IMG/VR virus record: IMGVR_UViG_3300044675_000795
Coordinates: 1-23,915 of that record
Strand: one strand, 5' to 3'
Source of the DNA: a virus
DNA length: 23,915 nucleotides
Shown here: positions 2,730 to 12,518 of the stretch, piece by piece
How positions within the stretch are numbered: the stretch's first letter is position 1
Layout: the number at the start of each line of letters is the position of its first letter
The notes under the pieces: model-generated
The model's database searches: none
The model's input: only the letters and a program-made list of their open reading frames with translations
Told to the model about the DNA's origin: nothing
Program-made: the position numbers and the translations under genes

Positions 2730-2986
2730 AACGGCAAATCCTCATCGTCGTTGAACTTCTCGGGGTTCTGTTCTGCCATCGTTTTAGGACGCGCAGCCTG
2801 CTTCGGCTCGAACTTGAGGGACATGAAGGCATCGCCGGTCTTACTGCTGCGCTTAATCCACGCGCTGATGTTTAGGTCAATGTTATCAATGACGGCAGAG
2901 CCACGGTAGTTAGGCGCTTTTTCGTTTCCCTTCTGGTCGTTCTTAAACAAAACGCCACGGTTGTTGTTGTCATACTGCTTGTTCAC
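2726..2986 (-). CDS. Small SSB-like protein with acidic DDEDLPF tail
   Basis: This 86-residue protein starts MNKQYDNNNRGVLFKNDQKG, followed by a short predicted beta-rich core (YRGSAVIDNIDLNISAWIK, FMSLKFEPK) and a linker ending in FNDDEDLPF. The end copies the acidic tip of bacterial SSB (DDDIPF), which recruits repair proteins. The NRGVLFKN opening is typical of small phage proteins often left unannotated or called DUF736-like. It is coupled by ATGA to the exonuclease gene and sits in the ERF-YqaJ-NinB cassette. I infer a single-strand DNA-binding role; the sequence does not prove it. Confidence 0.7.
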   Translation of the reverse strand: MNKQYDNNNRGVLFKNDQKGNEKAPNYRGSAVIDNIDLNISAWIKRSSKTGDAFMSLKFEPKQAARPKTMAEQNPEKFNDDEDLPF

Positions 2987-3591
2987 AGGGTCACCTTTTC
3001 CAGTTTGTTGAGTTTGTCGTCCAACTCTTGCAGGAAAGTAGTTACCTCCTGCTCAAGTATCTTGATGTAGTCGTCATCACGCGGGACGCGCACGACTAAC
3101 AGTTGCAGCCGCTCGGGCAAACGCGGGTCGTAGGACACGAAATCGCACCACGGTCTGCCCGTGCAAGCCATCTGCCATTGCATCTGCGTGAAGTATTTAA
3201 GGGGGGGAAGTTCTGCCAACACATACTCAAGGTGAGTAGCGGTGTTCGGGCATTTGACCTCTATCAAACCATCCTCGGCAAACCCGTCGGGGGAGGCACC
3301 AGACATTGCAACAGTCGGATGGTCTATAAAGCCGACATCCTCAACCAGTATCCCGGTCTTTGCGGCGTAGGCTGCTTTGGCTTGCGGCTCGGTTTGGGTA
3401 CCCCATTCCATCGCTGCATTGCTAAACGAAGATGCCTTCTGACCCGTCAGCCGCTCAACCACAAGGTCAGCCATGTAGTTAGCGCGACCTGCGCCATAGC
3501 CGGTCTTGGTCTTGGCGATGACATCAGCCACGCGGCTGGCTGTAACCTTGCCAAGCCGTGCCGCAAACCAGTCGTCTGTACGCTGTTCCAT
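2983..3591 (-). CDS. YqaJ/lambda-type recombination exonuclease
   Basis: The 202-residue protein begins EQRTDDWFAARLGKVTASR, the typical opening of YqaJ/lambda exonuclease-like PD-(D/E)XK nucleases. Catalytic residues are visible: GASPDG (D102), then IEVKCP (E111, K113), and YFTQMQWQM with the conserved glutamine after it. Such enzymes chew the 5' strand of double-stranded ends to leave 3' overhangs for a partner annealing protein. That partner, ERF, is immediately upstream: its TAA and this ATG share a base (TAATG at 3591). Length is normal and all key residues are present. Confidence 0.93.
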   Translation of the reverse strand: MEQRTDDWFAARLGKVTASRVADVIAKTKTGYGAGRANYMADLVVERLTGQKASSFSNAAMEWGTQTEPQAKAAYAAKTGILVEDVGFIDHPTVAMSGASPDGFAEDGLIEVKCPNTATHLEYVLAELPPLKYFTQMQWQMACTGRPWCDFVSYDPRLPERLQLLVVRVPRDDDYIKILEQEVTTFLQELDDKLNKLEKVTL

Positions 3592-4130
3592 TAGGCTAGT
3601 TCCTTCTTGCGTGCGCTGAACGCATCCATGTGGACAGCGCGGTCATCCGTTGATAATTCTTTAAACAGCGCGGTCAACTCGTCTTGCGTCTTAACAAGCC
3701 CAATGTTTTTAAGAACAACGGGCGAAGGTGTTGCGGCAAGTTTGCGTCCCTGCGCCGCTTCAGCATCGTCATCAATCTGCGCTAGCCCGACGATGGCAGC
3801 GAGGGCATAGCGTCGAGCGTAGGTGATGCCCGACCCCTGCGCCTGTGGGCCGTTGTCCTTCGTGACAACCGGGAGCGTGCCGCGCATCCATTCGCCGCTG
3901 CTGTGCGCGAGGGTAGTAACAAGCACGGTTCCGCCCTCAGTCACCTCGGTCGTCTGAATAACGGCGAGGTTGTTGGCGGCTAACTGCTTGCGGCAGGCAT
4001 CCCAGCATGATGCAAGGTCAGCGTACTTACTCTTGAAAAACGGATTGCTGCTGTCCTTAAGCGCACCCGTAATGTCGGCCTGCGCTTTGGAAAGGGCTGC
4101 GGCAAGAGCCGCGATGGATTCACTTTGCAT
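3591..4130 (-). CDS. erf: ERF-family single-strand annealing protein
   Basis: The start is ATG 4130, preceded by GAGGAAG six bases upstream; the open frame continuing to 4217 is out of register with the real upstream ORF. The 179-residue product has SNPFFKSKYADLAS near residue 28 and the GSGITYARRYAL motif, both typical of the ERF superfamily (P22 Erf-like). Family role: forms rings on ssDNA and anneals complementary strands, allowing recombination and circularisation independent of RecA. It is coupled with the downstream YqaJ exonuclease, a common synthesis-paired arrangement. The C-terminus is short and helical. Confidence 0.92.
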   Translation of the reverse strand: MQSESIAALAAALSKAQADITGALKDSSNPFFKSKYADLASCWDACRKQLAANNLAVIQTTEVTEGGTVLVTTLAHSSGEWMRGTLPVVTKDNGPQAQGSGITYARRYALAAIVGLAQIDDDAEAAQGRKLAATPSPVVLKNIGLVKTQDELTALFKELSTDDRAVHMDAFSARKKELA

Positions 4131-4227
4131 TTTGTTCTTCCTCAAATTGCTGTTGTTCAAGGTCTTGCTGATGCCACCAACTGTCATCGTCGTCCCACGG
4201 GGCATCTGATTGGTCAAAGTCGTCCAT
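4120..4227 (-). CDS. Tiny acidic Gln/Asp-rich protein (35 aa)
   Basis: ATG 4227 is shared with the TAA of the upstream 25-residue ORF (TAATG) and is preceded by GAGGACTTTCTA. The 35-residue product starts MDDFDQSDAPWDDDDSWWHQ and ends in a Glu/Gln-rich stretch, so it is very acidic with a WW pair. Its stop overlaps the erf start by 11 bases, and the erf Shine-Dalgarno lies inside it. This implies coupled translation. No family is recognised. The tight packing between two coupled genes argues that it is translated; it could act as a leader that sets erf expression. Confidence 0.6.
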   Translation of the reverse strand: MDDFDQSDAPWDDDDSWWHQQDLEQQQFEEEQNAK

Positions 4228-8398: not shown

Positions 8399-8767
8399 AT
8401 GGCTGCTCACGAAAAAACCGCGGCTTTGTTTGTCGGAACGATGCTTCACAGCGCGACCGTCACGCACCTTCAGCACTTTTCTACAAAGAGTTACGCGCAG
8501 CATAAGGCGCTGCAAAAATACTACGAGGCTATTTCAGACCTTGTAGACGCATACACAGAGGCGTATCAGGGACGCTACGGCATCATCACGGGCTACGATG
8601 TCGAGTTCCATAAGAACAGCAACCCGAAGGCGTATGTGAAGTCGCTGTTGACCTTCCTCGACGAAATCAAAGGCTCACTCCCGAAGGACAGCGACCTTGT
8701 TAACCTGTTCGATGCCGTGGTTGATGCCGTGACGAGCCTTAAGTACAAACTCGAAAACCTCGAATAA
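8399..8767 (+). CDS. Ferritin/Dps-like small phage protein (DUF5856-like)
   Basis: This 122-residue protein is predicted all-helical. It opens with HEKTAALFVGTMLHSATVTH followed by LQHFSTKSYAQHKALQKYYE and DLVDAYTEAYQGRYG. The spacing of H, E and the E-x-YQG helix resembles Dps/ferritin-like four-helix proteins, and phage members of this type are annotated as DUF5856. A possible role is metal binding or DNA protection, but iron-site residues cannot be confirmed by eye. The stop shares a base with the next start (TAATG). Confidence 0.6.
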   Translation: MAAHEKTAALFVGTMLHSATVTHLQHFSTKSYAQHKALQKYYEAISDLVDAYTEAYQGRYGIITGYDVEFHKNSNPKAYVKSLLTFLDEIKGSLPKDSDLVNLFDAVVDAVTSLKYKLENLE

Positions 8768-10023
8768 TGGCGAAGAAAGCGGAACCGTCGCGGGTTGCTG
8801 CCGCGCTGCAATACCTCCAGCAGATGCGCGACCGTGCCGCTGATTTCGGTGGTGGGGTAGTCGATACCCTCGCAGACCGCGCACGGGATGTCGGTGGACT
8901 TGCCTACGAAGCCTTTACGAGCGACCCCAACATCGGGCGCATGACGACGGCAGAGTACGCCCAAGCCGCCGACCGCCCAACCCCTCGCCTAGACCAAGCC
9001 GCCCAAGACCTTGGTACCATCGGCAAGGCAATCGTTACGCAGCCGGTTCAGACGGGCAAGGCTCTTGTGCAAGGCGAGGTTGAACGCGCACGGCAGGCGA
9101 TGACCAGCCCCCGCGCTGCCGGTGAGTATGCAGGGTCGATGGTTGACCCTATGCGGATAGCCGCCGCGCTACGCAAAACCGCCCCTATCGCTGAACTAGA
9201 TGTGTACCACGGCACACCGCATCGCTTTGACCCGACGGAGGCCAATCCGCTAGGCGAATTTGACGCTAGCAAGATTGGCACGGGCGAGGGGGCGCAGGCT
9301 TTCGGGCATGGAATTTACCTTGCCGAAAAACCAAGTGTTGCTCAAGACTATCAATTTATGTTGAGCAAAATTGACCCAGAAACCGTTACTTATCAAGGCA
9401 AGCCTGTCCAAAAATGGTATGACATGGCGCAAGCCGAGCAAGACAGAGCGCATAGGTTAGGCGACCGTGCCGCGATTGACCGCGCTAACGCAAAATTGGC
9501 GTATTGGGAAAATGTCATGACTCGCCGCCATCCAGAAGATGTAAAGCGCGTGGCAAACGACCCGGATGACGGGTGGCCTACCTTTGCAAACTATGCAAAC
9601 TCTTTGGAAATGGAAAAATTTGGCGGGTTGAAAGAATCAGGCTCCCTCTACAAAGCCGACCTCCCCGACGAGATGATAGACCGTATGCTCGATTGGGATA
9701 AGCCGTTAAGTGAGCAGCCGGAAAGTGTCCAGACAATTTTGAAAAATTTAGCCAAAAAAGACGCAGAAAAATACGGGGAAGGCGGTGGTCTTGATTACTA
9801 CATGGGCGACCCAGATAGTTACAATGGTGAGAGCGTTTACCGTTATCTTGCTGAACAGCAAGACAGTCAAGTTAACACATCTGAATACTTTAAAAATCTA
9901 GGCATCCCCGGCATCAAGTATTTAGACGCAGGCAGTCGCGGCGGTGACTCTGCAACCGGAACGCGTAACTTTGTCGTGTTCCCCGGCGAGGAAAAGAAGG
10001 TCAAGATACTTAAGCGGGATTAA
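8767..10023 (+). CDS. Polyvalent-type ADP-ribosyltransferase-like protein (418 aa)
   Basis: Residues 1-140 are helical with low complexity. Residues 145-200 contain DVYHGTPHRF (YHG 147-149), then FDASKIGTGEGAQAFGHGIY (165-184) and LAEKPSVAQDY. The protein closes with LGIPGIKYLDAGSRGG (378-392) and TRNFVVFPGEEKKVKIL. This arrangement is that of the ADP-ribosyltransferase domain of polyvalent proteins carried by phages and conjugative elements. Such domains may modify host proteins upon delivery. DNA for residues about 190-380 is more AT-rich than the first part, suggesting a recombinant gene. It sits just before the terminase genes. Activity is inferred from motifs only. Confidence 0.75.
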   Translation: MAKKAEPSRVAAALQYLQQMRDRAADFGGGVVDTLADRARDVGGLAYEAFTSDPNIGRMTTAEYAQAADRPTPRLDQAAQDLGTIGKAIVTQPVQTGKALVQGEVERARQAMTSPRAAGEYAGSMVDPMRIAAALRKTAPIAELDVYHGTPHRFDPTEANPLGEFDASKIGTGEGAQAFGHGIYLAEKPSVAQDYQFMLSKIDPETVTYQGKPVQKWYDMAQAEQDRAHRLGDRAAIDRANAKLAYWENVMTRRHPEDVKRVANDPDDGWPTFANYANSLEMEKFGGLKESGSLYKADLPDEMIDRMLDWDKPLSEQPESVQTILKNLAKKDAEKYGEGGGLDYYMGDPDSYNGESVYRYLAEQQDSQVNTSEYFKNLGIPGIKYLDAGSRGGDSATGTRNFVVFPGEEKKVKILKRD

Positions 10024-10086: not shown

Positions 10087-10365
10087 ATGGCTAAAGGCGT
10101 AAAGACAGGCGGGGGCAGTCGAGCAGGCATCCCCAATAAGGCCACAGCCGCCGCAAGGGAGGCCATTTCTCGTTTCGTAGATGGCAATGCAGACCGCTTG
10201 CAGGGCTGGCTCGACGAGATACACCAAGAGAAGGGCGCAGAGGCGGCGTTTAAGTGCTTCAGCGACCTACTCGAATACCATGTGCCTAAACTCGCACGGC
10301 ACGAACACAGCGGCCCTGACGGCAGCAAGATTGAGATTGAGGCGACTTGGGGAAAGCCCGAGTGA
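10087..10365 (+). CDS. terS: Probable small terminase subunit
   Basis: ATG 10087 follows GAAGAAG. The 92-residue product opens GVKTGGGSRAGIPNKATAAA, then REAISRFVDGNADRLQGWLD and LLEYHVPKLARHEHSG. The basic G-x-PNKAT N-terminus, helical middle and EY-x-x-PKLAR segment recur in short proteins directly upstream of large terminases. Family role would be recognition of phage DNA for packaging. It overlaps terL by four bases (GTGA). Assignment is from position plus this pattern. Confidence 0.65.
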   Translation: MAKGVKTGGGSRAGIPNKATAAAREAISRFVDGNADRLQGWLDEIHQEKGAEAAFKCFSDLLEYHVPKLARHEHSGPDGSKIEIEATWGKPE

Positions 10366-11696
10366 AGCAGCGGGTAGAACTCCCGTATCGCCCTAGACGG
10401 GCTTTCATGCCGTTCCACGACCGCACAAAGCGGTGGGCCTGCCTCGTCGCGCATCGGCGTGCTGGCAAGACTGTCGCAGCGGTTAACGACATCATCCGCG
10501 CAGCCTTCATGTACCGTGGGCCGAACGGCCTCTTTGGGTATGTCGCCCCCTACCAGAACCAAGCACGCCGCATTGCGTGGGACTACTTCAAGCACTACGC
10601 CCAGCCGCTCATCAGCGACACCAACGAGCAGATGATGACTATCACGCTTGTTAACAACACGAAGGTCAGCCTATTCGGCGCAGACAACGCAGACGCAATG
10701 CGCGGCCTTGGGTTCAGCGGCGTGTACATGGACGAGTACGGCGACTTCAAGCCAAGCGTGTTTGGCAATGTCATCCGGCCTGCGCTCTCCGACAAACAAG
10801 GCTGGGCTGTGTTTGCCGGTACGCCGAAGGGCAAGAACCAATTCTGGGACATCTACGAGACAGCACGGCGCATCCCAGACGAGTGGTTTGTCCTGCGCCT
10901 GCCTGCTAGCGAATCAGGCCTGCTGCCCCAGAGTGAACTCAACGCAGCAAAGGCGCAGTTGTCGGAAGACCAGTACCTCCAAGAGTACGAGTGCAGTTTC
11001 GAGGCGGCTATCCTCGGCGCGTTCTTCGGCACAGAGATGCGGCAGGCAGAGCCGCGCATTAACGAGCGTGTAGTCGTCGAGCCGGGGTATCCGGTACACA
11101 CAGCATGGGACTTGGGCTACCGCGACGACACCGCGATATGGTGGTATCAGGTCGTGGGCGGCGAGGTGCGCGTTATCGACTTTTTCGCCGTCTCCGGTGC
11201 AGACATCCGCGCCATTGCAGAAGTGGTTGTAAACAAGGGTTATCAGTACGGCAAGCATCACCTGCCGCATGACGCACGCGCCAAGAGCCTACAGACGGGG
11301 CGCAGCATCGTAGAGCAGTTGGCTGACCACCTCGGTATCAACCATTTGTCCGTAGTGCCGAACATTGGCTTGCAGGACGGAATCCAAGCAATTCGCCAAA
11401 TGTTGCCCCGAACTTGGTTCAACTCCGTAAAATGTGGCGACGGAATAGAGGCTTTACGCCAGTATCAACGAGAGTATGATGAGGACAAGAAAGCGTTCAG
11501 GGCATCACCCCGACACGATTGGACATCACACCCTGCCGACGCTTTCCGTATGTTTGCCGTTGCGTGGAGGGCTGAACCGTCCGCGCAGAGGCCGTTAGAG
11601 AGCAAGACCTTGATTGTTGGGCCACAGAACGAGGTCACGCTAAACGATATGTGGCAGGTTCACGAGCGTAGCGTCTCAAGGAGGGCGCGAATATGA
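10362..11696 (+). CDS. terL: Large terminase subunit (ATPase-nuclease)
   Basis: I place the start at GTG 10362, overlapping the small subunit stop, with GGAAAG upstream; TTG 10347 is an in-frame alternative. For the 444-residue form: Walker A HRRAGKT (31-37), Walker B VYMDE (121-125), coupling motif AGTPKG (152-157), nuclease segment TAWDLGYRDDTAIWWY (from 247) with D250 and D255/D256, and LPHDA (301-305). All motor and RNase H-like nuclease residues appear present. It packages DNA into the prohead through the portal. The next gene starts in its stop codon (ATGA). Confidence 0.95.
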   Translation: MKQRVELPYRPRRAFMPFHDRTKRWACLVAHRRAGKTVAAVNDIIRAAFMYRGPNGLFGYVAPYQNQARRIAWDYFKHYAQPLISDTNEQMMTITLVNNTKVSLFGADNADAMRGLGFSGVYMDEYGDFKPSVFGNVIRPALSDKQGWAVFAGTPKGKNQFWDIYETARRIPDEWFVLRLPASESGLLPQSELNAAKAQLSEDQYLQEYECSFEAAILGAFFGTEMRQAEPRINERVVVEPGYPVHTAWDLGYRDDTAIWWYQVVGGEVRVIDFFAVSGADIRAIAEVVVNKGYQYGKHHLPHDARAKSLQTGRSIVEQLADHLGINHLSVVPNIGLQDGIQAIRQMLPRTWFNSVKCGDGIEALRQYQREYDEDKKAFRASPRHDWTSHPADAFRMFAVAWRAEPSAQRPLESKTLIVGPQNEVTLNDMWQVHERSVSRRARI

Positions 11697-11998: not shown

Positions 11999-12024
11999 AC
12001 CGTAAGCCCGGACTCTACGCATGA
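11995..12024 (+). pseudogene. Displaced 5' stump of the small gene at 12515
   Basis: ATG 11995 overlaps the previous stop (ATGA) in the usual coupled manner. It codes MNRKPGLYA and then meets TGA, because the HNH gene starts inside codon 9 (ATG 12021). The downstream gene begins MSKPGLYAAILAKQERIKAG, so the residues K-P-G-L-Y-A occur twice. This marks the point where the HNH gene inserted. Confidence 0.8.
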
Positions 12025-12518
12025 AGAAATGCTTTCGCTGTAAGGAAGTTAAAGCGGAAGGCTTTTTCTTTCGGCATATGCAGACGGCAGATGGGTTGCA
12101 CAGTTGGTGCAAACAATGCTGTCAAGCAGGCAATGCGAAAGCGCGTGCAAAAAAAGACTCCACGATTGCAGGAAAGGGAATCACAATCTGGAGGAATGCT
12201 CGGAAAAGCGCAGAAAAGCGAAACCAAGAGTTTTCAATTACGCTTGCGGATATCATTCAATGTTGGAATCAACAGCAACAAATATGCGCCTACACAGGGC
12301 GCGAAATGACATTGATTGCCAAGCAATTAAACACGGTTTCAATTGAGCGTATTAACAGCAAAATTGGTTATACCCCGCAAAACACAATCTTGGTATGCCA
12401 AGCAGTTAACCGAATGAAATCTAATTTTGCGTATGAAGATTTTTACGAATTGTGCCGCGATGTCACAATGTTTTTAAGCGATGATGAATTGCAACTTGCT
12501 GTTGCGGGTGTTCAATGA
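12021..12518 (+). CDS. Free-standing HNH homing-type endonuclease
   Basis: The 165-residue protein begins MKKCFRCKEVKAEGFFFRHM with a C4-x2-C7 pair, and C30-x2-C33 in SWCKQCC, forming an N-terminal zinc knuckle. The HNH core is ICAYTGREMT followed by VSIERINSKIGYTPQN and TILVCQAVNRMKSN (about 106-134), where the usual D-R-I is replaced by E-R-I. Such enzymes nick or cut DNA and spread their own gene. The coding DNA is markedly AT-rich compared with both sides. The gene splits a small conserved gene near its start. It ends in ATGA overlap with the restored gene at 12515. Confidence 0.85.
   Translation: MKKCFRCKEVKAEGFFFRHMQTADGLHSWCKQCCQAGNAKARAKKDSTIAGKGITIWRNARKSAEKRNQEFSITLADIIQCWNQQQQICAYTGREMTLIAKQLNTVSIERINSKIGYTPQNTILVCQAVNRMKSNFAYEDFYELCRDVTMFLSDDELQLAVAGVQ

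Follow-up and report, generated by a model that had tools for sequence, protein, structure and literature searches.

The putative effector gene and its genomic setting

The window, by which we mean the whole stretch of DNA that was analysed, is a 23.9-kb (23,915-nucleotide) IMG/VR virus record from a freshwater phage. Among its packaging genes lies one for a putative effector, whose start codon shares one base with the stop codon of the preceding gene (TAATG). The features of interest are as follows.

2983..3591, minus strand: YqaJ recombination exonuclease (PF09588, E 5.1e-27)
3591..4217, minus strand: ERF single-strand annealing recombinase (PF04404, E 9.8e-23)
8399..8767, plus strand: DUF5856 gene, operon partner of the effector (PF19174, E 1.4e-21; phrog_858, E 2.8e-24)
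8767..10023, plus strand: effector gene, 418 residues; leader plus ADP-ribosyltransferase (ART)-like domain
8767..9186, plus strand: shared helical leader, residues 1–140 (about 137 residues); proposed delivery or packaging module
10087..10365, plus strand: small gene in the TerS position (phrog_15261, E 1.5e-4, and its place before TerL; called TerS by position only)
10347..11696, plus strand: terminase large subunit, TerL (phrog_2, E 5.5e-39)

The open reading frame at 8767–10023 is a real gene and not a chance one, because it has 132 relatives in IMG/VR and selection is purifying in every segment (dN/dS 0.10–0.29). An earlier note on this DNA had set it at the head of the packaging operon. 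This is nearly so: the gene is in fact second, behind the DUF5856 gene and ahead of TerS and TerL. Its placement among packaging genes holds in related phages. The DUF5856 gene adjoins the effector in most loci of the window's clade, and in most loci with visible neighbours the effector lies between that gene and TerS. In a sister clade (L049, L052, L059–L061, L065 and L067–L070), it stands directly before the portal gene, with ends that overlap or abut. In the wider family, the neighbours that could be recognised by comparison with two reference phages, at low sensitivity and within 3-kb flanks, are portal, TerL, scaffold and capsid genes. The homologue phiGT1_5 of Sulfitobacter phage phiGT1 (QLB38217.1), with 30% identity over 83% of the protein, also sits in a head gene cluster, between portal/structural genes and those for scaffold and MCP/capsid. 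A leader common to this cultured phage and the window was considered and rejected, as a profile search found no detectable relationship.

The portal protein of the window is closest to those of Mx8-type podoviruses and other phages (26–38% identity), and no cultured close relative of the window phage was found. The best explanation is that it is an uncultured podovirus, distantly akin to Mx8. A Lysobacterales metagenome-assembled genome from Lake Baikal (L213) has a terminase 65% identical to the window's, which is either a weak hint of the host or a misbinned viral contig.

Some further observations concern the neighbourhood. A tRNA-Gln (ttg) lies on the minus strand at 149–220, near the contig end. 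At 12021–12518, an AT-rich ORF (GC about 43%), resembling an HNH-type insert, separates the terminase and portal genes and is lacking in near relatives, L005 and L009 among them. The TerL ORF seems to begin at codon 55 in L024, L031, L032, L064, L071 and L075 and at codon 39 in L020, L051 and L054; several of these late-starting loci have several hundred bases before the ORF, which gives the impression of a terminase broken up by an intron or a mobile insert.

Fold and active site of the ART-like domain

Judged by profile matches and a predicted structure, the C-terminal part of the effector belongs with the phage ADP-ribosyltransferases of the ART-PolyVal type (PF18760). The window protein itself scores 16.7–17.6 bits against PF18760, below the Pfam cut-off of 31.2, and the link is therefore made through relatives. 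Thus, 75 of 80 diverse members match PF18760 at E ≤ 0.1, with a strength from weak to good (best 2.6e-8), and a Pseudomonas plasmid homologue (L087) reaches 42.5 bits over the same stretch, above the cut-off. A weak DUF3990 match is present in 41 of the 80, and the ART core is carried by at least 590 confirmed IMG/VR loci. An AlphaFold model of residues 141–418, built on the 80-sequence alignment, has a mean pLDDT of 82.5 and a pTM of 0.77. Searched against BFVD, it matches ART-PolyVal-like viral models (E down to 2.2e-17), and a PolyVal ADP-Ribosyltransferase at E 9.8e-7 and 18% identity. The matches of relatives to PF18760 and those of the fold in BFVD bear out the kinship to the ART domain of polyvalent proteins that the earlier note had proposed. 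Structure prediction, which it had named as a check, matched ART-PolyVal models, but no solved ART in the PDB gave a significant match by profile or fold, the fold test being weakened by large helical inserts. The NAD pocket is, for this reason, a predicted one. The usable model came from the deeper alignment of the ART part alone; that of the full protein, with 40 close relatives, had a pLDDT of 50 and its PDB search result is meaningless. Profile matches to HIV gp41 constructs and OmpC were discarded as artefacts, being short, low-scoring or helical stretches away from the active-site blocks.

With the ART-PolyVal/Tox-ART-HYD2 domain, as presented in passages of Iyer et al. 2017 (PMC5512222), the window protein shares the YHG strand 1, the G.G.Y strand 2, the C-terminal strand motif, the phage packaging context and the predicted role as an injected effector. 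It differs in being short, in having Asn for Asp/Glu at the start of strand 5, and in the two shuffled cassettes inside the domain of the window clade, a feature absent from the description in those passages. Polyvalent proteins carry two or more domains of disparate activity per chain (Iyer et al. 2017), whereas the window protein has one enzymatic domain and a leader; hence the term polyvalent, applied to it earlier, does not hold in the strict sense. Some relatives have an extra C-terminal domain, namely L025–L027 and L078 (phrog_2579) and L053 (weakly ParB-like).

The motifs first noticed by eye lie where they had been placed: YHG at residues 147–149, FDASKIGTGEGAQAFGHGIY at 165–184 and GIPGIKYLDAGSRGG at 379–393. 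The model strands are β1 144–150 (with H148), β2 183–186 (with Y184), β3 293–299, β4 382–386, β5 400–404 and β6 413–417. The HYD assignment for the ART-PolyVal/HYD2 clade, in the relevant part of PMC5512222, is His in strand 1, Tyr in strand 2 and Asp in strand 5, and the model of the window protein has the first two. Y184, Y195, Y295, E174 and N401 are invariant in 80 members, D387 is kept in 78 and R391 in 79. The Tyr/His/Glu set expected in homologues is conserved in its Tyr (Y184, 80/80) and its His (H148, 76/80, Gln in the other 4), but the Glu is absent. The residue at which strand order predicts Glu or Asp is Asn401, and D387 is near, at the end of strand 4. The third active-site residue would be one of these two, and equivalence to the Asp of the clade could be fixed only on a solved template. 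An Asp usually follows VVF in the wider family, and does so in phiGT1_5, whereas the window clade has Pro406 there. The R-S-E active site of the T4 Alt/VIP2 ARTs is not found, the window motifs being of the H and Y types. Alt of phage T4 is an ART of that R-S-E clade which accompanies the DNA into the cell and acts on host proteins, as the window protein is proposed to do; packaging is shown for Alt and conjectural for the window protein. In the ART genes of L060, L061, L062, L065, L067, L069 and L070, a whole subclade, YHG reads YQG with the remaining core kept; to go by the sequences, activity there may be altered or lost.

The domain might be a catalytically dead ART fold that is retained as a virion or binding protein. 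Such a reading draws on Asn401, invariant with no Glu or Asp at that place, and on the 4 of 80 sampled members in which Gln replaces the His. We consider it improbable, since Y184, GTGEG, H148 (76/80) and R391 are kept across very diverse phages and purifying selection is strong on all constant blocks.

Exchange of cargo and of cassettes

A search with residues 1–140 alone recovered 86 loci, which bears out the leader of about 140 residues recognised earlier as a module of shared sequence; the prediction of its helices is of low confidence. At the same locus, three other cargos follow the leader. The first is a protein with LPD23 (PF18838, above cut-off; five members were scanned, with E of about 1e-10 to 1e-12) and a zincin-like HExxH motif, HELQH (L194, L196–L198, L202, L204, L206, L207 and L209). 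The second is an unnamed domain (L073–L075, L195, L199–L201, L205 and L208), a distant homologue of which lies between the terminase and portal genes in phage C72C1. The third, by eye, is a second ART-like domain (L186/L187; phrog_2579). Two leader-fused cargos are domains described from polyvalent proteins. In sister loci with swapped cargo the flanking genes are mostly 85–99% identical; in L074, flanking proteins 87–98% identical to the window's enclose an unrelated cargo. In L037–L039 and L198, a second protein in tandem (phrog_3170 cargo) begins with a leader copy that has diverged further.

The leader matched nothing in Pfam, the MuF domain included, and nothing in 50,697 phage records by tblastn. 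Because it falls in no recognised family and has no match in cultured phages, its delivery role is argued from placement and domain swapping. A close parallel is that of the MuF polymorphic toxins (Jamet et al. 2017, PMC5576092), in which a constant N-terminal module beside terminase/portal genes precedes C-terminal domains that can be exchanged, those of ART and metallopeptidase type among them. The window system differs from these in that its leader lacks a MuF domain (Pfam), and in that exchange also takes place inside the catalytic domain.

Alternatively, an ART-like enzyme might be made late in the infected cell and remain unpackaged, where it would modify a host or phage protein during assembly or shield the packaging machinery from host defence. 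Late intracellular action fits the same genomic placement, PMC9503650 gives protection of packaging components as an alternative, and the leader is not known to carry a cleavage or targeting signal. Nevertheless, a leader common to several unrelated polyvalent-type domains (ART, LPD23 with its zincin motif) has the look of a module for trafficking and not of a component of a single enzyme, and we regard the intracellular alternative as rather unlikely, albeit the most serious of those weighed here.

Within the ART domain, the gene divides as follows.

9187..9363, plus strand: constant block C1; strand 1 with H148, GTGEG loop, strand 2 with Y184; dN/dS 0.10
9364..9636, plus strand: variable cassette V1; approximately residues 200–290, helical in the model; 23 types in 52 proteins
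9637..9720, plus strand: constant block C2; SLYKADLPDEMIDRMLDWDKPLSEQ, strand 3; crossover between V1 and V2 probably falls here
9721..9897, plus strand: variable cassette V2; approximately residues 319–377, helical, GC 39.5%; 20 types in 52 proteins
9898..10020, plus strand: constant block C3; GIPGIKYLDAGSRGG..RNFVVFPGEEKKVKIL, strands 4–6, D387, R391 and invariant N401

Alignment A1 shows three near-invariant constant blocks and two intervening stretches that are wholly different. When the 52 distinct proteins were cut into segments and V1 and V2 were clustered separately, the 23 V1 and 20 V2 types were found in 39 combinations. The combination graph holds one closed six-member cycle, which requires recombination or parallel change. 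In DNA, one cassette is often 95–100% identical while the other is at the level of shuffled sequence (50% for shuffled V1). Thus L053 and L029 share 99% identity in V1 and 33% in V2, L029 and L024 share 52% and 100%, L064 and L048 share 98% and 28%, and the window and L170 share 43% and 100%. V1 is likewise 99% identical between L079 and L051, with the leader at 53% and the flanks at 52–56%, and between L076 and L064, with flanks at about 50%. Sixty-nine pairs have a common V2 and different V1, and their synonymous divergence has a median of 0.05 in V2, 0.18 in C3, 0.48 in C1 and 0.39 in the leader. Pairs with a common V1 and different V2 give a weaker contrast (0.43 versus 0.55 in C1), probably because many of them represent one old V1 type. 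V1 and V2 are therefore exchanged separately between phages. The earlier guess that the effector was swapped between phages turns out far stronger than its author supposed, as both cargo and cassettes are exchanged.

The wider family was segmented by alignment columns; a regular-expression split missed most members. Distant phages contain one of the V1 module types again, at E about 1e-10. In Methanosarcina virus MetMV (L086), the freshwater-phage V1 module lies between strands 4 and 5, at about residues 230–312 of the stretch translated from 2800, in a protein that itself has no V1. Long third inserts between strands 4 and 5 were seen by eye in some distant relatives and are absent from the members in alignment A3. 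Towards the 3' end, most V2 types share the pattern G-x-x-[LIV]-Y, and some of them may accordingly be far-diverged versions of one helical scaffold. In L071 (975–2151), a change of frame inside C1 breaks the effector ORF in two, through either decay of this copy or a sequencing error.

Base composition follows the same division. The ART part (GC 49.8%) is indeed AT-richer than the leader (64.5%), as had been remarked, but unevenly so, mainly in V2 (39.5%, GC3 0.36) and V1 (49.8%); C2 and C3 are at 55–56%, and their GC3 (0.63–0.71) resembles that of the phage's own TerS/TerL genes.

Could the mosaicism be neutral, with insert-tolerant loops shuffled by chance recombination? The inserts do sit between conserved strands, and phages recombine freely. 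Against this, dN/dS inside each cassette type is 0.10 (V1) and 0.29 (V2), far from 1; the flanking terminase and portal proteins are mostly 85–100% identical where the effector is at 47–65%; and the V1 module recurs in distant phages and at another insertion site in the Methanosarcina virus protein. There is, in our estimate, little likelihood of neutrality. Still smaller, to the point of being negligible, is the chance that metagenome assembly created the combinations artificially. Every close relative is a metagenomic contig, but L009–L012, from four data sets, all pair V1 type B with V2 type 1, and type A of V1 accompanies type 0 of V2 in several metagenomes. Such recurrence in independent metagenomes counts against chimeric assembly, and the reading frames are open and under purifying selection.

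The new element is thus a two-level modularity, of cargo behind the leader and of cassettes inside the ART; a narrow search, covering open-access papers, found no description of cassette shuffling in a phage ART. The HsdS specificity subunits of type I restriction enzymes carry a pair of variable recognition segments, set between conserved blocks, that recombination reshuffles. The comparison is one of analogy only, as HsdS is unrelated to the window effector.

A proposed role in infection

The explanation that we somewhat favour is that of a modular anti-host effector, delivered by the virion, whose targeting parts are shuffled. The protein would be expressed late, with the packaging genes, and carried into the virion by its leader, and would enter the cell alongside the DNA at infection. 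There, the C-terminal enzyme, a diverged one of the ART-PolyVal type (H148, Y184, and N401 or D387), would move ADP-ribose from NAD to a host macromolecule. V1 and V2, as helical additions to the catalytic frame, would most likely determine the host factor that the enzyme recognises or the host inhibitor that it evades. Sister phages replace the entire cargo that follows the leader, or exchange V1 independently of V2 through recombination between conserved blocks, and the phage's own ERF/YqaJ pair is a candidate engine of this exchange. Genomic placement favours delivery, as do published predictions: passages of two surveys (PMC5512222 and PMC9503650) predict that ARTs near terminase and portal genes are packaged and injected. 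The points against our explanation are the PF18760 score of the window protein, the solved ARTs, none of which it matches, the Asn at the start of strand 5 and the subclade with Gln for H148.

Taken together, the shared leader and the traded segments suggest a rapidly re-targeted weapon against bacteria. A more ambitious version, plausible though somewhat less likely than not, is a combinatorial locus: one delivery leader, several enzymatic cargos and, in the ART cargo, two independently exchanged targeting cassettes. Their exchange, driven by the phage annealing recombinase, would direct the enzyme to other host factors or let it slip past host inhibitors, in much the way that the specificity subunits of type I restriction enzymes are redirected.

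To our knowledge, phage ARTs are common and their targets are mostly unknown. The loci described here form a natural matched series, in which the leader, the catalytic frame and one cassette are the same and the second cassette differs. Comparisons within such natural pairs would directly reveal the recognition partners of the cassettes, and would test whether the shuffling of specificity parts is a means by which phages diversify the enzymes that they inject. Should the leader prove to be a virion-targeting module, it would also provide a new way to detect injected effectors in phages that have not been cultured.
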